IMG/VR virus record: IMGVR_UViG_3300008050_000268
Span: 1 to 25,973 of that record
Strand: one strand, 5' to 3'
Length of the DNA stretch: 25,973 bases
Source: a virus
Of the stretch, positions 2,709-14,134 are shown piece by piece; the stretch's first letter is position 1; each line of letters opens with the position of its first letter. The position numbers were made by a program, and so were the translations under genes. The notes beneath the pieces are model-generated. The model saw only the letters and a list, made by a program, of their open reading frames with translations. It searched no databases and was not told the origin of the DNA.

Positions 2709-4811
2709 ATGGAAAAAGTTATTAAAGAAGGACAAACTCAAGTTTACGCAGGCGGTGCAATTGACCGTCAATATGGTGTTAACACTGATGCTCCTTACCT
2801 TAATTCACCACCACAACAATTAATTGACATTGTTGGAGTTTTATTTACACAAAGCGGTAAAACAAAACTAGATGGTAAAAATGGTAAAATAGTTGAAGGT
2901 GGACCAATGACGGATGCACAAGTACTTGCAACTCTTGTAGGTATGGGAACTCCGCAACAATTAGCAATGAGTGCTATTAATGCCTTCAAAGGAAATCAAA
3001 CAGAAATTACAGAACATAATAATAAACAAAAAAATCATAACGAAATGAAATTTACAATCGCTGAACTGCACGAAAATGTTATGAAGAGCATGGAGGCTTT
3101 AAAGGTAATGAATTCGGATAATTCCAGAGTTTCTTATACTGCTAAGAATGCCCTTAACATTTTACAAGAATCTCTAAAGGCATTCCCTATGAGGTTTAAA
3201 AACGAAGAAACTGAAGTAATCAGTGAAGAAATAGAAAATAGTGTTAATCCTATGCTTAAGTTTAGTATTGCTAAACAACTTCACAGAGACTTAGCTGCTT
3301 CAGATTGGATTAATCCAATCAAGGAATTAAGATCATATATATCTGATGTCTATTCTGATGCCAAATGGTCTTTCAGAATATCTGAGGCTATTGAAAGAAC
3401 AAGAACACAAAGAGGTAAAATGTATGAAGGTCTTGGAAATGATTTAGAAGGCTTATTAACAGAATCTTCTGATACTATTAAATCTAAGTTTTCTGCTATT
3501 GCTGCAAAGAACCCATGGTCAATGGATTGTAAAGCAATTATTAATGAAATGAAAGCTGAAGATAATAAAGCTGCTTCAAATGGTGGTGGAGTTATTTCTA
3601 CTATTCTTTCACCAGTTTTAGAATCAGAAAACGGTTTAACATTCCACTTACATGGAAAGAATTATAATTTTGATGGAAAAACAATTTCAGAAACAGAAGT
3701 TAAAGACCCAAGATTCTTTGATGTATTAGAAGGTCTAGGCATGTTTAAAAATACTAACGGTACTTTAGTTACTTTTGGTGAAGGAAATAATAAAACTTTA
3801 GAATACAATTTAACTGAAGGTACTATTAAATTAGGAAAGACTGATTTATCAAATGCTAGTATAATTGAATTAAAGGAAGCATTGCTTGCAACTAATTTCT
3901 TTGGTTATAGAAACCAATGGAAAATTGATAAGGCATGTAAATTCTTTGAATCTGCTGAACTACTTGCTGAAATGGATAACTTTACAAATATTACTTCATC
4001 TGAATTTAAAGACTTATTTTTAACTATGATTGCTGTTGGTGCTGGTAATGCTCACATAGGTGAAGGAATCTACATTAATAAAGTTAATCTTGGAATGCAA
4101 ATGAATGAAATGATATTAGTTTCTACGGCAACTGAAGCTGTTGAATTAGTAAAAGAATTTATTAATTATGATGCTTCCCAAATTCTTTCAGAAAGATTAA
4201 TCGCTGAAAATGATGAAACTGCAAAACTTAATAAATCAAGAGCTGATATTTCAGATAAGATATCTTTCTTAGAAGAAAAGAAGGCAAAGGTAAAAGAAGC
4301 TATTAATAAACTCGGTGAAACTGAGGAACTTACTGAAGCTATGAATCTTTTACAAGAAGAGATTGCTAAGTTTGAAAAATCTTTACAAGAAACTTATGAT
4401 GTAGTAACTCTAGGTGGAAATAAAGGTGATAAATCAAAAACTCATGATGGTGAAGATTACGAAGAAGAAGATGAAAAGGATGAATCAGCTAATGAAAAAT
4501 ATGATGATGTTGTATTAGGCGGAAACAAAGGTGATAAATCTAAAACTCATGATGGAGAAGATTACGAAGATGAAGATGAAAAGAAAGACGAAGCAGTAAC
4601 AGAAAAAAAAAGTCGTAACGATTATTTAAACGACGGATATGTTGAAGCTGAAGTTAATAAGAATGCCAATGGTCTTAGAAAAGGTACTGAAGTTTTTGTA
4701 AGTGCTGAAGACTATACTTCTTTAGGTGATGATGATCAATTAGAATGTATTGACCCTAAAACTGGGAAAACTACTATTTGTAACAAGAGCCAATTAAACG
4801 TTAAAATTTAA
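2709..4811 (+). CDS. Unassigned 700-aa protein, probably virion-associated, with acidic tandem repeats
   Basis: I do not recognise the family. Visible parts are: residues 1-112, Gly/Pro/Gln-rich; a very Asn/Lys/His-rich linker around 104-112; from Met113 a mostly helical region beginning MKFTIAELHENV; a mixed domain around 300-480; a coiled coil at about 490-560; two 35-residue acidic repeats at 563-632, each with the core LGGNKGDKSKTHDGEDYE; and a small C-terminal domain of about 65 residues with alternating beta-type sequence. Late-type promoter, position among structural genes and acidic tail (T4 core protein gp67 also has one) suggest a head or core component; this is inference. MKFTIAE contains a possible prohead-protease site (IxE). 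The DNA encoding the linker looks like a promoter leader (see findings), so the gene may be a fusion of two genes. A strong terminator follows. Confidence 0.8.
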   Translation: MEKVIKEGQTQVYAGGAIDRQYGVNTDAPYLNSPPQQLIDIVGVLFTQSGKTKLDGKNGKIVEGGPMTDAQVLATLVGMGTPQQLAMSAINAFKGNQTEITEHNNKQKNHNEMKFTIAELHENVMKSMEALKVMNSDNSRVSYTAKNALNILQESLKAFPMRFKNEETEVISEEIENSVNPMLKFSIAKQLHRDLAASDWINPIKELRSYISDVYSDAKWSFRISEAIERTRTQRGKMYEGLGNDLEGLLTESSDTIKSKFSAIAAKNPWSMDCKAIINEMKAEDNKAASNGGGVISTILSPVLESENGLTFHLHGKNYNFDGKTISETEVKDPRFFDVLEGLGMFKNTNGTLVTFGEGNNKTLEYNLTEGTIKLGKTDLSNASIIELKEALLATNFFGYRNQWKIDKACKFFESAELLAEMDNFTNITSSEFKDLFLTMIAVGAGNAHIGEGIYINKVNLGMQMNEMILVSTATEAVELVKEFINYDASQILSERLIAENDETAKLNKSRADISDKISFLEEKKAKVKEAINKLGETEELTEAMNLLQEEIAKFEKSLQETYDVVTLGGNKGDKSKTHDGEDYEEEDEKDESANEKYDDVVLGGNKGDKSKTHDGEDYEDEDEKKDEAVTEKKSRNDYLNDGYVEAEVNKNANGLRKGTEVFVSAEDYTSLGDDDQLECIDPKTGKTTICNKSQLNVKI
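3016..3047 (+). promoter_or_regulatory. Possible internal promoter/start inside the 700-aa gene
   Basis: ATAATAATAAACAAA at 3016-3030 is identical over 15 bases to the promoter-like sequence before gp55 at 4881-4895. An in-frame ATG (codon 113) follows at 3045. This could direct a 588-aa shorter product, or be the relic of an intergenic region absorbed into the reading frame. A-rich sequence makes chance resemblance a real possibility. Confidence 0.3.
4395..4604 (+). repeat. Tandem in-frame repeat, 2 x 105 bases (35 residues)
   Basis: Repeat 1 is 4395-4499 and repeat 2 is 4500-4604, both exactly 35 codons in the 700-aa gene. The shared core LGGNKGDKSKTHDGEDYE is identical in protein, while many third codon positions differ (GGTGGAAAT against GGCGGAAAC). 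The duplication is therefore not recent and the protein sequence appears to be kept by selection. Confidence 0.85.
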
Positions 4812-5273: not shown

Positions 5274-5753
5274 ATGAGTATCAAGAAGGTAAAACCAACC
5301 CCTCGTTCAGGATATAAGCAAGGTTATTATAAACCTATTAATCCACAAAAGTATATAGGGGAACATCCGATTATATACAGAAGTAGTTGGGAGAGGAAAT
5401 TTTGTCATTGGTGCGATCATAATGAAGAAGTAATCAAATGGGCATCTGAACCATTCTCAGTGAAATACTTTAATATGCTAGATAAAAAGTTTCATAATTA
5501 TTATCCTGATTTTTATATGAAAATGGATAAAGGTGAAGGTATAATTGAAGAATTTGTTGTTGAAATAAAACCTAAGGCTCAATTACAAAAACCAAAAGCA
5601 CCAAAAAGAAAAACTGCAAAGGCATTAAAAAACTTCCAACATGGATATGAAACTTATGTTAGAAACCTTTGTAAAACTGAAGCATTAAACAAAATGGCAA
5701 AACAGAGAAATCTTAAAGTTATGCTTTTAACTGAAGACTCAAAATTATTCTAA
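5274..5753 (+). CDS. 4: Head completion protein gp4 (PD-(D/E)XK-like fold)
   Basis: In T4, gp4 (also called gp50) finishes the DNA-filled head before tail joining. The 159-aa product matches the T4-type pattern closely: a basic N-terminus, NPQKYIGEHPIIYRSSWE at residues 23-40 (T4: NPKKYKGNHPIIYRSSWE from memory), ending in Glu40; then PDFY with Asp79; then VVEIKPK with Glu97 and Lys99. Glu, Asp and ExK together form a TnsA/restriction-like nuclease arrangement, though nuclease activity in this family is not something the sequence proves. The C-terminal 60 residues are Lys-rich. The start at 5274 lies 2 bases after the gp55 stop, and the stop overlaps the next ATG as TAATG, which suggests translational coupling. 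Confidence 0.87.
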   Translation: MSIKKVKPTPRSGYKQGYYKPINPQKYIGEHPIIYRSSWERKFCHWCDHNEEVIKWASEPFSVKYFNMLDKKFHNYYPDFYMKMDKGEGIIEEFVVEIKPKAQLQKPKAPKRKTAKALKNFQHGYETYVRNLCKTEALNKMAKQRNLKVMLLTEDSKLF

Positions 5754-6328
5754 TGGCAATAGTAGGATCCTTTCAAGAAGATTTAGATATTTACCTTGCA
5801 GATTATAAAGGTAGAACTGGTGCGTCTAAACAATCAGATAAAGAATTAAAGAGTATAGGTAGTATCGCTAAAGGTACATTAGAAAATGGAAAAATGTATT
5901 CTTTTGAATATTTTACACCTGATGAAACTTTTTATGATACATACCCAATAGTATTAGGTCTAGGTAAAAGTATTGATAATCACCAATTGGCTGTAAATCT
6001 ACATTACATTCCTTATGATGCTAGAATACCTTTCATCTCGGATGTAGTAAGATCTTTTAATAATGTTATCAGTTCATCAGTAAATAAATCACCAGGTAAT
6101 CCTAGTGCTCAACAGAGATTAAGTGAATTTACTTATGATAATTTAAAGAAATCATTAGGTAGAAAATATAATCTTACTTATGCGGTAAGACAATATAGAA
6201 TGGATAGAATAAGAAAACCAAGGATGTTAGGTTATGAAGATTGGTATATAGGTGCCGTTAATAATCAAAACCATTTCTTTGGAGGAAATATAAATGAGGC
6301 ACAAGCATTATATTACAAGAATATATAA
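5753..6328 (+). CDS. Conserved T4-superfamily protein, 191 aa, probably head/neck or baseplate
   Basis: The middle of the protein carries GKMYSFEYF, then YDTYPIVLGLGK, then LAVNLHYIPYDAR (about residues 47-91). I know this pattern (YYDxFPLV followed by LNLHYLP) from uncharacterised structural proteins of marine T4-like phages, but cannot tie it to a numbered T4 gene. The C-terminal half is basic (SLGRKYNLTYAVRQYRMDRIRKPR). In T4 the neighbours of gene 4 are 2 and 53, so gp2 (DNA end protector) or gp53 (baseplate wedge) were considered; the LysM-like segment expected in gp53 is not visible. Its start overlaps the gp4 stop by one base, and its stop codon lies inside the next promoter element at 6322. 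Confidence 0.75.
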   Translation: MAIVGSFQEDLDIYLADYKGRTGASKQSDKELKSIGSIAKGTLENGKMYSFEYFTPDETFYDTYPIVLGLGKSIDNHQLAVNLHYIPYDARIPFISDVVRSFNNVISSSVNKSPGNPSAQQRLSEFTYDNLKKSLGRKYNLTYAVRQYRMDRIRKPRMLGYEDWYIGAVNNQNHFFGGNINEAQALYYKNI

Positions 6329-6348: not shown

Positions 6349-7998
6349 ATGGCAGGTTTTACTGACAGAAGAGGACCCTTAAGTACCGGGAATCCTGTAA
6401 GGAAGATTTTAAAGGATCTTTCTAATTTAGGCATGGCTTACGATGATATGATTATCCGTAATTCTCGTGCAGTAGGTTTCACTGAAAATCAAATGGGTTA
6501 TACCTTTAATCCAATGGGCTCTGATGCCGATGATATGTATAGCGCATTTGCTGCACTATCATTAACAGATACTACAATGAAAAAGAATATCTCTATTTTT
6601 GATAGGGATTATGAAAGAAAGAGAGACCAACTTAGAGAATACGCAGTACAAGATGAAATAGAAGATATCTTAGATGTAATCACAGATGAAGCAATTGTAT
6701 TTGATGAATCTAACTTTATGGCGTATGGTGATTTTCACGGTCATATTGCAAGTTCTATTGAAGATGAAATTGGAGATGTATATAATAATCTATACAATTA
6801 CTTTGGTTTTAATGATTCTGTACAACCTTGGAATTATTTTAGAAAATGGTTAGTAGATGGGTTCTTGGCATTTGAGATAGTTTATAATGATAAACAGACA
6901 GAGATTATAGGATTTAAAGAATTGGATCCTATTTCCTTAATGCCAGGTATTGATACTGACACTGGAAAGAAGCAATGGGTACAGTACCAAGGGCAGGGTG
7001 CTAAAGAAAGAAAGCTATGGGATTCACAAATCATTTATCTTTCTTATTCTTCGATTAACTCACCAATGAGAATATCTTATGTTGAAAGATTAATAAGATC
7101 ATTTAATCTTTTAAGAATAATGGAAACGACTAGAATTATCTGGGCTGTTTCTAATGCTTCATTTAAAACTCAGTTTATTATACCTGTCGGTGGTAAATCT
7201 AAGACTAGGGCAAAGCAATCACTTGCACAGCTAATGAATTCTTACCGAGAGGTAGTTGATTTTAACCAAGAGAGTGGTGAAATCGTAACTAATGGAAAAC
7301 CAATGATGCCATTTAATAAGGAATATTGGTTACCTTCAAAGGATGGTGAATCTCCAGAAATTAGTACAATCGGTGGTGATGGACCAGATCTTGGTGATAC
7401 TGAATCTCTTAAGTATTTTGCTGATAGATTAAAAATGGCTTCTAAGATTCCTTTCTCAAGGTTTGATAAGGAAGGTGGAAATACATATGATATGGATGCC
7501 AGTGGAATGTTAAGAGACGAGATCAAATTTTCTAAATTCATTGATCGCTTAAGATCCATATTCCAAGAAATACTAGTTAAACCGATGTATCTTCAAATGT
7601 GCATCAATCATCCAGAGTTAACAAATGACGTTTCTTTTAAATCAGGCTTAGGGCTTAATTTCGTTAAGGATAATGTGTTTGAGGAAATGAAAGAAATGGA
7701 ATTACAGACAAAGCGAGTTGATTTTATTGGTAACTTAAAAACTCAATTAAGTACAATGACTGCTGAAATGGAGGAAATTCCATACTTCGATTTAGGATTC
7801 TTGGTTAAGAGATACGGTGGATTTACTCGTGAGGATTTAAAGGCTAATGCCAGAGCTAAAGAAAGAGCTGATTTAGAGAAGGAAGGATTTGCTGAAGGTG
7901 ATATTGAAAAGATCCTTTTAGGTGCTGATAAGGCAGATTTTAAACCAGAAGAAAAAGCAGGAGGGGTTGATGAAGATCCATTAGCAGACCTTGGATAA
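6349..7998 (+). CDS. 20: Portal vertex protein gp20
   Basis: Twelve subunits of this protein form the ring at one capsid vertex through which gp17 pumps DNA and to which the neck attaches. The 549-aa product (T4: 524) has the conserved N-terminal block REYAVQDEIEDILDVITDEA at about residues 103-122, a clip/stem region with IGFKELDPISLMPG, LPSKDGESPEISTIGGDGPD, then LKYFADRLKMASKIPFSRFD (about 355-374), a signature stretch of T4-type portals, and DEIKFSKFIDRLR. The acidic C-terminus (last ~20 residues) is probably disordered. It starts its own unit behind a late-type promoter and leads the order portal - protease/scaffold - capsid; T4 has 20-67-68-21-22-23, so genes equivalent to 67 and 68 are not seen between them. 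Confidence 0.92.
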   Translation: MAGFTDRRGPLSTGNPVRKILKDLSNLGMAYDDMIIRNSRAVGFTENQMGYTFNPMGSDADDMYSAFAALSLTDTTMKKNISIFDRDYERKRDQLREYAVQDEIEDILDVITDEAIVFDESNFMAYGDFHGHIASSIEDEIGDVYNNLYNYFGFNDSVQPWNYFRKWLVDGFLAFEIVYNDKQTEIIGFKELDPISLMPGIDTDTGKKQWVQYQGQGAKERKLWDSQIIYLSYSSINSPMRISYVERLIRSFNLLRIMETTRIIWAVSNASFKTQFIIPVGGKSKTRAKQSLAQLMNSYREVVDFNQESGEIVTNGKPMMPFNKEYWLPSKDGESPEISTIGGDGPDLGDTESLKYFADRLKMASKIPFSRFDKEGGNTYDMDASGMLRDEIKFSKFIDRLRSIFQEILVKPMYLQMCINHPELTNDVSFKSGLGLNFVKDNVFEEMKEMELQTKRVDFIGNLKTQLSTMTAEMEEIPYFDLGFLVKRYGGFTREDLKANARAKERADLEKEGFAEGDIEKILLGADKADFKPEEKAGGVDEDPLADLG

Positions 7999-8018: not shown

Positions 8019-8026
8019 TATATAAA
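8019..8026 (+). promoter_or_regulatory. Late-type promoter element TATATAAA
   Basis: GTAATATATAAATCAAA starts its TATATAAA core 26 bases before the ATG at 8045, in the gap after the portal gene. It matches the window-wide element. Confidence 0.6.
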
Positions 8027-8044
8027 TCAAATAACTAGTAGAAA

Positions 8045-9751
8045 ATGTCAGGAAAAAAATTATTGATTCTCGAAAGACAGAAATCAAATTTAGATATAAC
8101 TACCGCAGAGGACGGTTCTGTTGTATTAGAAGGTGTATTTACCGAATTTGATGTTAAGAACAAGAATAACCGAATTTACGAGGAAAAGGAAGTAATGCCT
8201 CATATTAACGAATTACAAGAAAAGGTTAAAACTAATAAGCTTTTAGGTGAATTAGATCATCCTAAAGATTTTGATGTTAGTTTAGCTAATGTATCACATG
8301 TTGTGGAATCATTAGATTATAACAAAGATAAGAAACAAGTAATCGGTAAAATTAGATTATTAAATACTTCTAAAGGTAAGGAAGCACAAGCACTTATAAA
8401 GGATGGTATTCCTTTACACATTTCAAGTAGAGCTGCTGGTACAGTAGATGAAAATGGTAAAGTTAAAATCAAAAAGTTCTTCACATATGACTTAGTAGCA
8501 GATCCTGGATTTGAGAATGCTGAGTTATCAAGAGTAAATGAATCATTTGGTTTAAGTAATGATAATGATATATTAATCTACGAAATGAAAGAAACTGAAA
8601 ATAACACCGATAATAAAAAAGATTTAACAATGGAAAATAATAATTTTGTAACTGTTGAAGATTTTCAAAAGTATACTGAATATGTATCTGGGGTTCTAAG
8701 TAATGTTAAAGAGTCTACTAATTCTAATAATGATGAGGTGATGGAAAAACTTATTAAGTACACAGAGCACGTTGCAGAGAAAGTAAATCAGGTTACTGAT
8801 TATGCTGAATACTTATCCGAAAATCTAGATAAAAATATTTCATACTCTGATTACTTAGCAGAGAATGTAAATTCAATTAAAGACTATGCTGGGTATTTAG
8901 CTGAAGAGCTTGATGGAAGTATTCAATATGCTGAGCATGTTGCTGAAATGTCAGATAAGGGAATTCAATTCTCTAACTATGTTGCTGAAAACTTAGAAAA
9001 GAGTATTAATTATTCTGAGTATGTAGCTGAAAAGGTTGACCAGAATATTGCTTATTCTGAATATCTTGGTGAAAATGTAGATAAGAGTATTAAATACTCC
9101 GAATATATTGCCGAAAACATTAATGCACCTAAAGGTGAATCACTTAATGAGGCTGATGAAGTAGAAACTAAAGAAACTAAAACTGAAGAAGTAATAGTTG
9201 AAACTAAAGTTGAAGATATTAAAGACTATAAAGATTCAATCGATGAGAAATTAAATAAACTTATTTCTGCTGCGGAAACTAAAAACGTTTCTGAAATGCA
9301 CTTTATGAATTTCTTAGGAGAATCTAAAAAGAATCAATTTAATTCTTTATCTGAAGATAAGCAAGCTATGATTGTAGAGTCAATGAATGCTAAACCGATT
9401 ATGTCTACTATCCAAGCTGAAAATATTTGGGAATCTAATTTTGTTGAAAAGAAAAGAGAATTAGATGTAGTTTCTGATATGCCAGAAAAATTTAAAGAAA
9501 AATGGGATAACCTTTCTGAAAATAGAAAAGAACAAATTATTTCTGAATCAAGGTTCCACCCTATAAATAATCAATATGGAATTAATAACTTCTGGTCAAC
9601 AAGAGATCTTAGGGATACTCAAATTGTAACAGAATCTATTAATGAAAGTAAAACTGCTGCTGAGTCTGCAACCACTAAAGAGCCATTAGTAAATGAATCT
9701 TTTAAAAATGACTTAATAGAAAAAATGAAATTCAGATTAGGTAGAATCTAA
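8045..9751 (+). CDS. Prohead protease-scaffold fusion (gp21-gp22-like)
   Basis: Residues 1-170 are a herpesvirus/T4-type prohead protease: VLEGVFTEFDVKNKNNRIY, then ELDHP with probable catalytic His72, then HISSRAAG with Ser127 or Ser128, then VADPGF with Asp153. In T4 this enzyme (gp21, about 212 aa) matures head proteins by cutting after [L/I]xE and removes the scaffold. Here the frame continues for nearly 400 residues: an Asn/Asp/Lys linker (about 181-195), Met196, nine 14-residue repeats (239-364), an acidic stretch, and two related 34-residue segments (431-464, 486-519). The tail is helical, acidic and sits where scaffold gp22 lies in T4, so it is probably the scaffold. An in-frame ATG at 8630 could give a separate 373-aa scaffold. 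The protease call is firm; the scaffold role is inferred from position and composition. Confidence 0.87.
   Translation: MSGKKLLILERQKSNLDITTAEDGSVVLEGVFTEFDVKNKNNRIYEEKEVMPHINELQEKVKTNKLLGELDHPKDFDVSLANVSHVVESLDYNKDKKQVIGKIRLLNTSKGKEAQALIKDGIPLHISSRAAGTVDENGKVKIKKFFTYDLVADPGFENAELSRVNESFGLSNDNDILIYEMKETENNTDNKKDLTMENNNFVTVEDFQKYTEYVSGVLSNVKESTNSNNDEVMEKLIKYTEHVAEKVNQVTDYAEYLSENLDKNISYSDYLAENVNSIKDYAGYLAEELDGSIQYAEHVAEMSDKGIQFSNYVAENLEKSINYSEYVAEKVDQNIAYSEYLGENVDKSIKYSEYIAENINAPKGESLNEADEVETKETKTEEVIVETKVEDIKDYKDSIDEKLNKLISAAETKNVSEMHFMNFLGESKKNQFNSLSEDKQAMIVESMNAKPIMSTIQAENIWESNFVEKKRELDVVSDMPEKFKEKWDNLSENRKEQIISESRFHPINNQYGINNFWSTRDLRDTQIVTESINESKTAAESATTKEPLVNESFKNDLIEKMKFRLGRI
8759..9136 (+). 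repeat. Nine 42-base (14-residue) repeats in the scaffold part
   Basis: Residues 239-364 form nine units in exact 14-residue register, each starting Tyr or Phe: for example YAEYLSENLDKNIS, YSDYLAENVNSIKD, YAEHVAEMSDKGIQ, YSEYVAEKVDQNIA, YSEYLGENVDKSIK. The consensus is Y[SA]EY[LV]AEN[VL]DKSIx. Fourteen residues equal two heptads, fitting a continuous amphipathic or coiled helix. A further related segment begins at Tyr210. DNA copies differ at many positions, so the array is old. Confidence 0.9.
9335..9601 (+). repeat. Diverged duplicated segment in the scaffold C-terminal part
   Basis: Residues 431-464 and 486-519 align without gaps at an offset of 55. Shared positions include LSE (435-437 and 490-492), an Ile at 443/498, Pro-Ile at 451-452/506-507, Asn460/515 and Trp462/517. 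About 8 of 34 positions are identical, so this is an old or weak duplication. Confidence 0.5.
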
Positions 9752-9878
9752 TCTAAAAGATATTAATCGAATGGTTAAGAAGAAAAGAACCGAGGCGATT
9801 AAAAACGGAATTTAATAAATTCCACCAAAGCTGACAAATTTAAATCTGTCAGTGATTGCGAAAAATAATTTTTTAAAA
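9752..9878 (+). promoter_or_regulatory. Structured leader of the capsid gene
   Basis: This 127-base gap has no TATATAAA element. It holds a 7-bp hairpin GGAATTT (9807-9813) with AAATTCC (9817-9823), and a 22-base imperfect palindrome from CTGACA (9831-9836) to TGTCAG (9847-9852), whose inner arms also pair except for one mismatch. A 14-codon frame starting with ATG at 9771 (MVKKKRTEAIKNGI, stop at 9813-9815) lies upstream. The leader could be an RNA processing or stability element for the most abundant late transcript. Confidence 0.45.
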
Positions 9879-11618
9879 ATGTACGCAAATCAATTAATCA
9901 ACGAGGCCGAAGTTCAAAAGACTTGGGGCCCTATCATTGAGGAGGCTACTGGCGTTACTGAAAAGTCTAAGTTATCTTGGATGTCTAAGTATTGTCATTA
10001 CCATAACCTTAATGAAAGTGTATATAATACTGTACACTTAAATCCTAACATGAATGTTCAAGGTATGAATGCACCAACTTTCCCGGCTGCACCAACTACT
10101 ATGAATGCATTCCAAGGACAAGACGTAGGATCTGGTGACAGACCGTTTTCTTTGCTTCCACTTGCTATGCAAGTTGCTGCTCAGACTGTAGGTTTAGACT
10201 TAGTTCCTGTTGTACCAATGCAAGGCCCTATGGGAGTTCTTACTTACTTAGACTTTGTATATGGTGGAGGTCGTGTAACAGCAGCTGGCGGAATCGCTAC
10301 TGACAGTGCACCACTATTAATTAAAGCTCCATTAACTCAAGTTACTGGAACAACTTTAGCTGTAGACTCTATCGTTTATGTTGGTACAGGAACAAATGCA
10401 TCTTACGAATTAACTTACGTAGGCGTTTCTAGAATTGACGGATATCCAATTTTCCGTGTAAGAGGTAATAGCATCGATGAGGTGACTACTAACTTTTCAC
10501 AAGGTGAAGAAGGATATGAGCCAATCTATACTGCTGTAGAAGGCGTTACTCCTACTAGTTTTTATAGCGATGCCGCTCTAACAACTGACTTAGGTGACTT
10601 TGACGGTGCTGCTGAATATGTTAAAGCTTTAGAAGACCACATCTCTGGTTTTTCTGGTAATGCTTTTGAAGCTAACAACCCAACAACAGGTGCTCCTGGT
10701 TTTGCAACCGAGAATATCGATGGTTTAGATCCTTACCAAAGAGGTAATGGTGAAGCTACACCTGATAATATCATGGGTCTAAGTTTATTTAACAAATCAG
10801 TTGCTGCAAAAACTTTCCAAGTTGCTGCTGCCGTAACTAGAGAACAAGTTCAAGATCTGAAGCAATTCGGAATTGATGCTGTTGCTCAAGTTGAAGCTGT
10901 ATTGGTAAATGAGTTAACTCAATCTATTAACAAATACATCTTGGATAGAATCTTCAGAAATGGAGCTACTAATGCAAGTAATGTAAATACTGTTGATAGT
11001 ATATTCTTATCTCAATCGTTTGGTGACGGTACTACTGCAACTAACGTTGCTGGTTTCAACCTAGGCGCTGGTAACAATAGTAACGCTCCTGCTATCACAT
11101 TAGGTGCTGGTTCTGCCGTAACTAATGTATCAGGTGGTGGAGAAACACAAGGAACAGTACAACGTAGGTTGTTTACTAAAGTACTTGCTGCTTCTAACCT
11201 AATCGCAACAAGAGGAAGAAGAGGACCTGCTACTTTCGCTGTATGTTCAGGGCAAATCGCTACTGCACTACAGGATGTTTCAGGATTCGTACCTTACCCT
11301 TTATCAAACACAGTTAATCAAGCTGGTGGATCTTTATATCCAATCGGTGCAATTGCTGGTGTAACTGTTTATGTTGATCCAAACATGGCTTGGACTGACT
11401 TAAGAGTTGCTGTTGGTAGAAAAGGTGATGGTAATTCTCCTGGTTTAGTATTCATGCCTTACTTAATGGCTGAATCTGTTGAGACAATCGCAGAAGGAAC
11501 TATGGCTCCTAAGATCGCGGTTAAATCTAGATTCGCTTTAGTAGACGCAGGTTTCCACCCAGAAACTATGTACTATACTGTAGCATTCGCTACTTTTGAC
11601 GGTGTAAGTTTAATCTAA
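9879..11618 (+). CDS. 23: Major capsid protein gp23
   Basis: Main shell subunit of the head (HK97-type fold). The family is shown by LPLAMQVAAQTVGLDLVPVV with VPMQGPMGVLTYLDFVYGG (about residues 90-130), by FQVAAAVTREQVQDLKQFGI with a following helix ending INKYILDRIF, and by a late GRRGPATFAVCSGQIATALQ. The frame is open from a GTG at 9852, but the ATG at 9879 gives MYANQLINEAEV, like N-termini of T4-type capsid precursors, so I take it: 579 aa (T4: 521). Precursor cleavage by the protease is expected after [L/I]xE; candidates are INE at 7-9, IEE at 20-22 and LNE at 44-46. Expression is probably very high: codons are more C-ending (TTC, AAC, GAC, ATC) than in neighbours. It ends before a strong terminator. 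Confidence 0.93.
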   Translation: MYANQLINEAEVQKTWGPIIEEATGVTEKSKLSWMSKYCHYHNLNESVYNTVHLNPNMNVQGMNAPTFPAAPTTMNAFQGQDVGSGDRPFSLLPLAMQVAAQTVGLDLVPVVPMQGPMGVLTYLDFVYGGGRVTAAGGIATDSAPLLIKAPLTQVTGTTLAVDSIVYVGTGTNASYELTYVGVSRIDGYPIFRVRGNSIDEVTTNFSQGEEGYEPIYTAVEGVTPTSFYSDAALTTDLGDFDGAAEYVKALEDHISGFSGNAFEANNPTTGAPGFATENIDGLDPYQRGNGEATPDNIMGLSLFNKSVAAKTFQVAAAVTREQVQDLKQFGIDAVAQVEAVLVNELTQSINKYILDRIFRNGATNASNVNTVDSIFLSQSFGDGTTATNVAGFNLGAGNNSNAPAITLGAGSAVTNVSGGGETQGTVQRRLFTKVLAASNLIATRGRRGPATFAVCSGQIATALQDVSGFVPYPLSNTVNQAGGSLYPIGAIAGVTVYVDPNMAWTDLRVAVGRKGDGNSPGLVFMPYLMAESVETIAEGTMAPKIAVKSRFALVDAGFHPETMYYTVAFATFDGVSLI

Positions 11619-11715: not shown

Positions 11716-12870
11716 ATGAAAACATTAAAATCATATAATCAATTTATAGCTGAATCTGATAATGTAGATGAAGGCATTACTGATATTAAAGGTATTATGT
11801 CCAATCCTATTAAATATAAGAAGATTAAAAATAATGCTAAAAAGTATCAACAGACTAAAGTTCAGATATCTTTAAATAATTTAGATTACGAAAAGAAGAA
11901 GCAAGCATCTAAAGGAGAATTAGATTCAAAAACTAAAGAAGCATTAAAAGTTGCAAATGCTACTAAGAATACTGCATTAAAGGATAAAGCTTCTGCTATA
12001 AGCCAAAGAATGAAAGATCTTGCTACAACAGAACCTCTTAAAAAGGTTGTAACTATTGCAACTACAAAGTCAAACCTAGCGGCAGCAGAAACTGCGCTTA
12101 AGGCTGCTGATGGTGAAGAATCAAAACAACTTAAGATTAGAATTAAAAAATTAGCAGGTAAAGCTGCTGACGCTCAACAGGCATTAAAGGATTATGAATC
12201 TGAAGGTGGGAAGGATTCTAAATCAGCTTCACCGGCAAATGATGCAGGTAACACAACAGATGCTGAAAGGACTAAGTTAGATAAAGAAAAAACTGATAAG
12301 GCTAAAGAAGCTCAAAATCAATCAAAAGAAGATATTGATAAACTGGTTAAAGATGCTAAAGCTGCATATGATAAAGTAAAAGATGGTGAAGATGCTAAAG
12401 CTAAGTATGATGCTGAAATTAAATTTAAACAAGCACAACAGAAAAAGGCCAAGTTTGATAACAACGATGAATTATACAAAGGTTTAGGTAATGACATTGG
12501 AGAGATAATGAAAAAGCAACAAGACTTAGATAAACCTGATACTGCTAAAGATAAGATTGCTCAATTAGAAGGTAAAATAGCAGCCCAAGATAAAATTCAA
12601 AAGGAAAGGTCAGAAAAAATTGATAAGTTAAAGAATGACTTGGACAAAGCTAAAATCAATAAAAATACTGGGAGATCATCACAAGGTGAAATAAATAAGA
12701 TTAAAGATTCAATCCAACAAGCAACTGAAGATTTAAAGCGTTCTAAAGATGAAGAGAAATCACTAAGAAAGAAACTAAAACCATTAGCAGACAAAGAATT
12801 TGGAGAATCTTTTGCTCCATTAGAAGAATCGGTTTCTCAAAAGTTTAGAAGGCTAATGAATAATGTATAA
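11716..12870 (+). CDS. Probable packaged internal head protein with capsid-targeting N-terminus
   Basis: The 384-aa product starts MKTLKSYNQFIAES. T4 internal proteins II and III start MKTYQEFIAEA (from memory); that leader targets them into the prohead and is cut after FIAE by gp21. The match of MKT plus FIAE at nearly the same spacing, in a gene directly after the capsid gene with its own late-type promoter, suggests a head-internal protein. The rest is Lys/Ala/Asp/Glu-rich, almost free of aromatic residues, strongly helical and coiled-coil-like (about residues 50-350). The C-terminus ESFAPLEESVSQKFRRLMNNV is distinct and also holds LEE. No catalytic motif is visible. An alternative is a scaffold or core protein in the role of T4 gp67/gp68. 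Its end overlaps the next start by 8 bases. Confidence 0.8.
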   Translation: MKTLKSYNQFIAESDNVDEGITDIKGIMSNPIKYKKIKNNAKKYQQTKVQISLNNLDYEKKKQASKGELDSKTKEALKVANATKNTALKDKASAISQRMKDLATTEPLKKVVTIATTKSNLAAAETALKAADGEESKQLKIRIKKLAGKAADAQQALKDYESEGGKDSKSASPANDAGNTTDAERTKLDKEKTDKAKEAQNQSKEDIDKLVKDAKAAYDKVKDGEDAKAKYDAEIKFKQAQQKKAKFDNNDELYKGLGNDIGEIMKKQQDLDKPDTAKDKIAQLEGKIAAQDKIQKERSEKIDKLKNDLDKAKINKNTGRSSQGEINKIKDSIQQATEDLKRSKDEEKSLRKKLKPLADKEFGESFAPLEESVSQKFRRLMNNV

Positions 12871-13354
12871 GGTAAGACACATTAATTTTGGATGGTATAA
12901 AAGGAGGCATGGTATTCTATTGGAGAATCTGCCTCCTTTGAAGCAAAAACTTTTATTGGAGCATAATCATATGAAATGGCTAGATTCTGATGTAGATGTT
13001 TTTGAGATTATATTTAAAATTGAGGATATGAACGAACATGAAAAGAATCCTAACCGTATACTCTGGAACCCTTTTAGAGAAACCTTTACAAACATAAAAG
13101 AATTAGAAAAAGATTCGGATCTTATAGAATGGAATTGCAGTATTTGTAAAACTGAAATTAAATCAAGGATGGATTCTAAGAAGGTTGAAAACTTTGTCTG
13201 TAACAAATGTTCAGAGGCCCATAACTCACGGAACAACAGAGTTGATCAAAGAATAATAGATTCGTCAATCAAATTTAATAAACACTGCAAATCATTACTA
13301 AAAGGTGAACAGAGGGAGTTTATGACTTATGCACGAAGATCATCTAAAGGCTAA
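12863..13354 (+). CDS. Small zinc-ribbon protein of unknown function
   Basis: This 163-aa product is not recognised. Residues 92-125 form a four-cysteine ribbon: WNCSIC, then after about 20 residues FVCNKC. The first 90 residues hold short hydrophobic helices and many charged residues; the C-terminus is basic (SLLKGEQREFMTYARRSSKG). A DNA- or RNA-binding role would fit but is not shown. The start overlaps the previous gene by 8 bases (translational coupling likely). Its last 15 bases overlap the end of the convergent minus-strand gene. A long hairpin lies in codons 13-26 of this gene. Confidence 0.75.
   Translation: MYKVRHINFGWYKRRHGILLENLPPLKQKLLLEHNHMKWLDSDVDVFEIIFKIEDMNEHEKNPNRILWNPFRETFTNIKELEKDSDLIEWNCSICKTEIKSRMDSKKVENFVCNKCSEAHNSRNNRVDQRIIDSSIKFNKHCKSLLKGEQREFMTYARRSSKG
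12900..12939 (+). other. Long inverted repeat inside the zinc-ribbon gene
   Basis: AAAGGAGGCA (12900-12909) pairs perfectly with TGCCTCCTTT (12930-12939). Inside the loop ATTCT (12914-12918) pairs with AGAAT (12924-12928). No T run follows, so it is not an ordinary terminator. GC-rich arms of this length are rare in such AT-rich sequence. Confidence 0.7.
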
Positions 13355-14134
13355 TGCATCTGCTATTGTTATCCTAGGAAATATTTTTAAATTACTGGTA
13401 GGGCATGCATTATAAATTTGAATATCCTTTCCTTTTAATGCATCTTTTAAAATATCAAAACCAGGCAAAAACTGTTCCTTATAAATTTTAGCTCCTGTGG
13501 CATTAACTGGATAACCATCGTGAAAATGACTACCTTCAGATGTCTGTCCCATATCATAACCTAATAAAACTATTCTTTTAGCACCTAGGTGTATGGCTAA
13601 ATTTATAGCAGCATATCCACTATTATTACCATGTGCTACAGAGTTAGGTGATGTTTCAATTCCAAACTTCTTTCCTCTCCTTAAAAGATTGACATGCCCT
13701 GGGTATGCTTTAGGTCTAATTGTATATTTTAAACCTTTAAAATTATTAATCTCTTCCTCTAACCAAGTAAAAACTCTACCATCGGTCCAGTATACCGCGT
13801 CGGCCTGAGGGTAAAATTTCAAAGCCTTATTAATTGCTATTGTTTTTTTACCTCTTAATGAGTTCCAAGTAAATCCTTTAAGAGAAGGGCCGCCTCCAAT
13901 TAAATAAACAGTTTCTCCTTTCCATAATGGTTCTACTTTAGTATACTTCCATTTTTGCTTAGGACCGTTTTGTATATAATTTGATTTATTTTTGTTTACT
14001 GATGTTACTGTTTTTACTCTTTTTATTGTGGACTGCCCAATCTTCCCTCTATTAATTCTACTTTTAGAATTTTGAGAAATCTCGGTGGGAACTGTGATTT
14101 TAACAATCTTTCTTATTTTTCTTGCCCTTCTCAT
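13340..14134 (-). CDS. MptE/DUF115-like Rossmann protein (possible glycan or nucleotide-sugar enzyme)
   Basis: Only minus-strand gene in the window; 264 aa. Residues 1-65 are very basic, Ser/Thr/Asn-rich and probably disordered. The domain starts with ETVYLIGGGPSLKGF (about 74-88), a nucleotide-binding-type turn, followed by KKTIAINKALKFYPQADAVY, then VAHGNNSGYAAINLAIHLGA with RIVLLGYDMG (about 168-197), then HFHDGYP, and a last strand IQIYNACPTSNLKIFP. This arrangement is shared by the MptE-like/DUF115 family and resembles GT42 sialyltransferases (GNGPSL, then SGVYMCAVAIALG, then IYLSGIDF). Known relatives act on pterins or transfer sugars; which applies here is unknown. No late-type element is clear upstream of its start, although the reverse strand there is very A/T-rich. 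It converges on the zinc-ribbon gene (15-base overlap) and diverges from gp44. It looks like an inserted cargo gene. Confidence 0.82.
   Translation of the reverse strand: MRRARKIRKIVKITVPTEISQNSKSRINRGKIGQSTIKRVKTVTSVNKNKSNYIQNGPKQKWKYTKVEPLWKGETVYLIGGGPSLKGFTWNSLRGKKTIAINKALKFYPQADAVYWTDGRVFTWLEEEINNFKGLKYTIRPKAYPGHVNLLRRGKKFGIETSPNSVAHGNNSGYAAINLAIHLGAKRIVLLGYDMGQTSEGSHFHDGYPVNATGAKIYKEQFLPGFDILKDALKGKDIQIYNACPTSNLKIFPRITIADALAFR

Follow-up and report, generated by a model that had tools for sequence, protein, structure and literature searches.

A T4-type S77 prohead protease fused in one gene to an apparent head scaffold, with a probable nested scaffold start

The stretch of DNA analysed here, referred to as the window, is the 25,973-base IMG/VR virus fragment IMGVR_UViG_3300008050_000268, which carries a T4-type head module. 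The module includes a DNA end protector gene (5753-6328), the portal protein gene (gp20; 6349..7998, plus strand; Portal_T4, E 9.6e-73), a single 568-aa open reading frame that joins an S77 prohead protease to a scaffold-like polypeptide (8045..9751, plus strand), the major capsid protein gene (gp23; 9879..11618, plus strand; Gp23, E 2.6e-31), and a gene for a candidate internal head protein (11716..12870, plus strand), whose product begins with the capsid-targeting-like peptide MKTLKSYNQFIAE↓S (↓ marks a known or predicted cleavage position). The portal gene is the upstream neighbour of the fused gene and the capsid gene comes directly after it, while the slots for gp67 and gp68 are absent between portal and protease in the window. 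The initial annotation had read 8045-9751 as protease and scaffold in one polypeptide, and the frame is indeed open for all 568 residues. About 20 nt upstream of it lies TATATAAAT (8019..8027, plus strand), which resembles a T4-type late promoter, would presumably act as one, and is kept in relatives. For the capsid gene, the open reading frame list gives a GTG start at 9852, whereas conservation among relatives favours the ATG at 9879 (MYANQLINE...). A 264-aa open reading frame at 13340-14134 lies on the minus strand amid plus-strand genes and carries an LIGGGPSLKG motif.

The N-terminal half is an S77 protease by every test made, i.e. profile, catalytic residues and fold. Residues 1-166 (8045..8542, plus strand) match PF03420 (Peptidase_S77) with an E of 5.7e-15 and 55.8 bits against a cutoff of 27, and the product of the fused gene matches phrog_207 with an E of 3.5e-38. 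The AlphaFold model, built on a 52-sequence alignment, is confident over the protease part (pLDDT about 90), and Foldseek aligns this part with T4 gp21 (5JBL; E 3.9e-9, TM 0.71-0.74 over the target), which is the closest solved structure both by sequence and by fold. The His, Ser and Asp residues pointed out initially are invariant in 52 homologues: the catalytic His72 (GELDHP; 8258..8260, plus strand) aligns to the T4 position, the catalytic Ser128 (SSR; 8426..8428, plus strand) aligns to T4 ASR/SSR, and Asp149 (TYDLV; 8489..8491, plus strand) is the probable third catalytic residue.

T4 gp21 cleaves at the motif L/I-x-E (PMC9026906), and conserved candidate sites suggest that the protease of the window would also cut after L/I-x-E. 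A predicted auto-cleavage site, V164-N-E166↓S167 (8534..8545, plus strand), would free the protease from the scaffold; N165 and E166 are invariant in alignment A3, and T4 gp21 has a similar candidate C-terminal processing site, ITE↓S, near the equivalent place. The protease domain ends with the pattern [LIVM]xE[SAG] in 121 of 122 fused and in 27 of 27 split proteins, the sole exception (L099) being a protein with an insertion in the protease domain. In this protein, from Desulfovibrio phage 7757, an intein-like insert beginning with Cys (CFLSNNFNVLTPNGWVHF...) breaks the S77 frame immediately behind LGELNHPS. In the capsid protein of the window, LNE46↓S47 is the predicted maturation site, and [LIM]NE[SN] is conserved before the predicted mature start across relatives.

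The C-terminal half, residues 196-568 (373 aa), was initially described as an acidic helical domain of 370 residues, and this description holds, with a net charge of -32, a pI of 4.6 and a mostly helical AlphaFold prediction. It contains 16 L/I-x-E sites against 6.5 expected, a number reached in 0 of 5000 shuffles. Nine tandem 14-residue repeats (residues 239-364; 8759..9136, plus strand), with the consensus Y-S-E-Y-[LIV]-A-E-N-[LV]-D-K-S-I-x, form a rod, and most of its repeat units hold a capsid-targeting-like motif together with a cleavage-like motif. The rod has a 3.5-residue periodicity of 20.3, compared with 6.5 at the 99.9th percentile of the null, and AlphaFold predicts long helices over residues 204-359 with low confidence (rod pLDDT 40-55). 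The number of clean 14-residue copies is 9 in the family of the window, 10-12 in four of five huge phages and 14 in L188; the array of the remaining huge phage, LR756500, is degenerate, and none was found in PTm1 or L181.

The rod is followed by a hypervariable insert (residues 365-393; 9137..9223, plus strand), delimited by the alignment and by AlphaFold disorder at 360-392. In many relatives (L002, L044, L061 and L073 among them), the insert between rod and C-terminal domain is Cys/His-rich, with CxxCGKxHE and often further Cys; the motif looks zinc-binding, and the copy in the window is without it. A module (D/K)VVLGGNKGDKSKTHDGEDYE occurs twice in a 700-aa open reading frame at 2709-4811 and once in the scaffold insert of a relative's fused gene (L068), which indicates a linker module common to two different genes. 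Residues 394-527 (9224..9625, plus strand) form a helical C-terminal domain that is conserved and looks internally duplicated; AlphaFold models a helical domain at 393-520 confidently, followed by a final helix at 551-565. Lak (E 8e-10), PTm1 (E 2e-7) and MA9V-2 (E 1e-4) have a homologous domain, and in them, as in the window, it belongs to a fused S77 frame (ORF-300 in PTm1). The polypeptide ends with a second VNE↓S motif and a basic amphipathic helix (residues 549-568; 9689..9748, plus strand), which from the model is a candidate capsid-protein-binding peptide. The initial annotation mentioned neither the repeats, nor the cleavage-like VNE↓S site ahead of the linker, nor the distinct C-terminal domain.

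This half is called a scaffold on the grounds of position, acidity, helicity and cleavage-site density, as no gp22 sequence homology was found. By hhalign, the fused scaffold matched the T4, cyanophage, PA5oct-like, Ackermannviridae and Campylobacter scaffolds with a probability below 1%; Pfam, PHROG and NCBIfam gave no convincing match for it, and no match to phrog_237. Profile-profile alignment thus detects no homology of residues 196-568 to gp22. The initial placement of this half in the scaffold position stood: it occupies the gp22-type place between the protease and the major capsid gene, where no other scaffold gene is found. Another reading of the same half is that residues 167-568 are an oversized C-terminal targeting propeptide and that the true scaffold is another protein, such as ORF 11716-12870, ORF 2709-4811 or the product of a gene outside the window. 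A precedent is the SPN3US protease gp245, whose C-terminal propeptide is self-removed and has been proposed to direct the protease into the prohead (PMC7411985), and the reading is consistent with the missing gp22 homology, with the lysine-rich ORF 11716 beside the capsid gene and with the 24 L/I-x-E sites of ORF 2709. However, neither ORF has a homologue in 116 loci of the huge-phage family (part of which end too early to reveal one), and these loci keep the fusion; ORF 11716 has just 3 L/I-x-E sites; and the same slot in split relatives holds a separate scaffold. A mere tail would also not need the conserved and constrained nested start described below. We therefore consider the propeptide reading unlikely, and residues 196-568 apparently act as the head scaffold.

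The two halves are joined by a disordered A-rich linker (8543..8629, plus strand; from the AlphaFold model and the sequence). Its Asn/Asp/Lys composition, remarked on in the initial annotation, is real, and residues 185-203 are predicted to be disordered. The ATG that follows (8630..8632, plus strand; Met196) is in frame and is the predicted start of a free scaffold of 373 aa and 43 kDa, a proposal that Met conservation, synonymous constraint and start context all support. Among 115 distinct linkers of variable length, Met is present in the aligned column in 112 and within 2 residues in 114, whereas the top residue of the flanking columns reaches just 38-65%; Met196 is the sole column above 90% in residues 180-201. 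Behind otherwise unrelated linkers, the pattern M-x(2-6)-[FY]-V-T recurs after the nested start and resembles the N-terminus of a gene.

Synonymous variation was analysed in 43 unique sequences of the window's own family, which were also thinned to 29, 19 and 12. The strongest synonymous constraint of the gene among close relatives is at 8606-8629. With 43 sequences, variation at the nested ATG is the lowest of the 566 windows scored along the gene (observed/expected 0.24, compared with 0.66 gene-wide), and this position keeps rank 1 or 2 at all four thinning levels. Amino-acid-matched permutation gave 0/5000 for -8..+4 around the nested ATG and 0.0004-0.003 for four other windows that take in the upstream side, yet 0.11, which is not significant, for a window wholly downstream; the six other conserved Met codons show no comparable constraint. 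A model of start context was trained on 134 other gene starts and compared with about 1930 internal Mets; in it, the nested ATG scores 4.48 (medians 4.84 for gene starts and -4.46 for internal Mets) and outscores 99.8% of the internal Mets. The context is A/T-rich, with no Shine-Dalgarno-like motif seen at these gene starts. A separate promoter for the nested start was rejected, as no TATAAAT lies upstream of 8630, the one at 8021 preceding the full gene; internal initiation on one mRNA is therefore preferred.

The alternative to internal initiation is a plain fusion with one product, in which protease and scaffold would be made 1:1 as in P2 gpO and Met196 would be kept for other reasons. P2 has protease and scaffold in one gene (PMC8508860), and since neither PTm1 nor L187 has an ATG, GTG or TTG where the two parts of its fused gene meet, a fused protein can function without this nested start. 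Still, this reading leaves unexplained why Met alone persists while linker sequence and length change, why the ATG shows synonymous constraint and a start-like context, and why the segment after it reads as a gene N-terminus; we judge it quite unlikely. In the huge-phage family, the nested Met is 98.5% conserved, but the synonymous constraint is weak (best windows p about 0.02-0.05). From these comparisons, we strongly infer the nested start for the lineage of the window, though not as a universal feature of fused proteins.

All of the 80 nearest IMG/VR relatives, with 71-89% identity in their best segment, have the same single fused frame, and so do more than 100 loci further removed, where the capsid gene is nearly always next, without a separate scaffold ORF; Lak was an exception in this search to the capsid gene being the next ORF. 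Uncultured huge phages of 462-735 kb also carry the fusion, and it occurs in Lak-A1 and in Tenacibaculum phage PTm1 and Chryseobacterium phage MA9V-2, in both of which the fused ORF stands just before the annotated capsid gene. An assembly or sequencing error that removed a stop codon between the halves, in favour of which there is nothing but the window being a single contig, is rejected as practically excluded by the conservation of the intact frame in those 80 contigs and in distant huge phages, and by 74 further hits of an 18-nt junction pattern, 72 of which lie inside recognisable fused frames and 2 of which end at a contig edge in the same reading frame. Names in GenBank of the kind 'prohead core scaffold and protease' carried no weight as evidence for fusion because an unfused protein is named likewise; the PTm1 ORF bears the annotation 'prohead core scaffolding protein and protease', which the unfused gp21 has too. 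In MA9V-2 (L090, 3911-7534), the fusion reaches 1207 aa, and its segment 464-576 matches phrog_858, a starvation-inducible regulator (E 5e-13). On a contig from a Bacteroidales MAG (L265, 3164-3635), the C-terminal part of the protease is in frame with an aminotransferase-like fragment at the contig end, a joint that is probably a chimeric assembly.

The initial annotation had also called for a search for relatives that keep two genes. T4, cyanophages and the PA5oct-like group do so, as do DLP6, Campylobacter F352 and Ackermannviridae; in split relatives, a protease (about 210 aa), a scaffold (250-390 aa) and the capsid gene follow in the same order. In the PA5oct-like group, the protease and scaffold genes are mostly separated by 11-34 nt and in some cases share a frame, so that little separates the fused and split states. 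In an unrooted tree of 48 protease domains, a branch with support 98 sets 30 of the 31 fused rows apart on one side; a second fused case, that of Xanthomonas phage phiXF1, is long-branched and stands among split rows. As the tree is unrooted, fusion and fission are both possible, and the initial reading of the linker as a former intergenic leader, which takes the two-gene order as ancestral, is one of these two possibilities. Bacteroidota hosts are suggested for the clade of the window by the cultured fused phages, all of which infect this phylum, and by related contigs in MAGs that include Psychroflexus, Bacteroidetes and Bacteroidales.

Taken together, it is probable that this one gene encodes a T4-type S77 protease fused to a head scaffold and that the nested ATG at 8630 yields free scaffold. 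The proposal is based on the fusion, its conservation, the protease fold, the gene order, the constrained start-like ATG and the conserved sites, and from these we infer the scaffold function, internal initiation, an excess of free scaffold and every cleavage. Full-length translation would give a protease-scaffold fusion whose own scaffold part brings it into the prohead core, and the same mRNA, translated from the internal ATG 8630, would give the free 373-aa scaffold. A surplus of scaffold over protease is expected from the T4 copy numbers of 576 for gp22 and 100 for gp21 (PMC5694885). The 14-residue repeat rod and the C-terminal domain would then build the core, with the basic C-terminal helix probably contacting the capsid protein. 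Once the shell is complete, the protease would free itself at VNE166↓S, cut the capsid protein at LNE46↓S and shred the scaffold at its numerous [LIV]-x-E sites, of which almost every repeat holds one.

The locus resembles T4 genes 21 and 22 in the S77 family and fold (5JBL), in the order portal-protease-scaffold-capsid and in the L/I-x-E cleavage logic. It differs in that T4 has two genes, a gp22 without the 14-residue array, scaffold parts without sequence homology to those here, and the gp67 and gp68 slots. T4 gene 21 also has an internal start, given as Met45 in PMC9026906 and falling 22 codons into the ORF annotated in NC_000866, but this start lies inside the protease and not at the scaffold boundary. 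The layout itself resembles, by analogy, the logic of lambda C/Nu3, P2 O and herpesvirus UL26/UL26.5, placed on a T4-type protease. In lambda, an N-terminal protease is fused to the scaffold and Nu3 is nested in frame within C, the protease being of the SppA/S49 type and unrelated to S77; the gene studied here likewise has the protease N-terminal to the scaffold in one frame and a nested in-frame scaffold start, here predicted, but differs in its S77 protease, repeat rod and C-terminal domain. The overlap of C and Nu3 is cited in PMC8508860. A Pfam search of the fused protein gave no match to the lambda (S49) or herpes (S21) protease families. In herpesviruses, the nested scaffold product is made from its own transcript. 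UL26/UL26.5 (UL80a/UL80.5 in HCMV) combine a protease-linker-scaffold fusion with a nested scaffold, release sites and a capsid-protein-binding tail (PMC7920273). The predicted layout of the fused gene is the same, and its protease fold is weakly similar (Foldseek E about 0.05), although herpesviruses are eukaryotic viruses with a different protease family. P2 gpO comes from a lineage other than the T4-type phages, and we know of no separately encoded scaffold start in it.

The fusion is thus real and its logic ordinary, whereas the combination is new and the match between repeat and targeting sequence unexpected. No description of an S77 protease-scaffold fusion was found in the literature searched, most subscription papers being outside its reach, nor was any discussion of the fusion in PTm1. 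A protease-scaffold fusion with a nested scaffold, as known in lambda and herpesviruses, is indicated also for an S77 protease, and the fusion distinguishes a whole clade of large T4-type phages, most of them uncultured. With the scaffold visible as a repeat array of countable units, each with a candidate cleavage site in nearly every case, the system is an approachable one.

The repeat match concerns the peptide that sends internal proteins into the T4 core. T4 ipII and ipIII begin with MKTYQEFIAE↓A according to the T4 record, and mutagenesis of the capsid-targeting sequence assigns residues 4 and 7 (Tyr and Phe) to targeting and 8 and 10 (Ile and Glu) to processing (PMC9026906). Most rod repeats match the ipIII pattern Y4, F7, I8 and E10 as Y-x-x-[FY]-[ILV]-x-E, although the predicted repeat sites mostly have Asn after Glu where the ipII and ipIII sites have Ala instead. 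A fused protein contains this pattern 8.6 times on average, mostly at a spacing of 14 residues; its mean in the scaffold half is 8.84, compared with 0.07 in shuffles, and other ORFs of the same loci contain 47 occurrences in 325,341 residues. Most of these 47 are N-termini of proteins encoded next to the capsid gene on its downstream side, i.e. ORF 11716 in the window and its counterparts in relatives, which begin with MKRVKSYNEFIAES or MAKLKTYSEFVNEA. The rod therefore looks, in sequence, like a tandem array of the targeting peptide, and the match suggests a way for the core to recognise its cargo. It is possible, though doubtful, that the rod is an array of capsid-targeting modules and that internal proteins, ORF 11716 for one, gain entry to the head by imitating a single scaffold repeat. 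If so, one maturation step would dissolve the scaffold and free the cargo, as the motif would be a cut site too, and repeat copy number could act as a setting for core length. The match may instead reflect a shared cleavage preference combined with helical periodicity rather than functional mimicry. ORF 11716 is conserved solely in the window's own family, and its C-terminus, PLEE↓SVSQKFRRLMNNV, recalls the VNE↓S motif and basic helix that end the fused scaffold.
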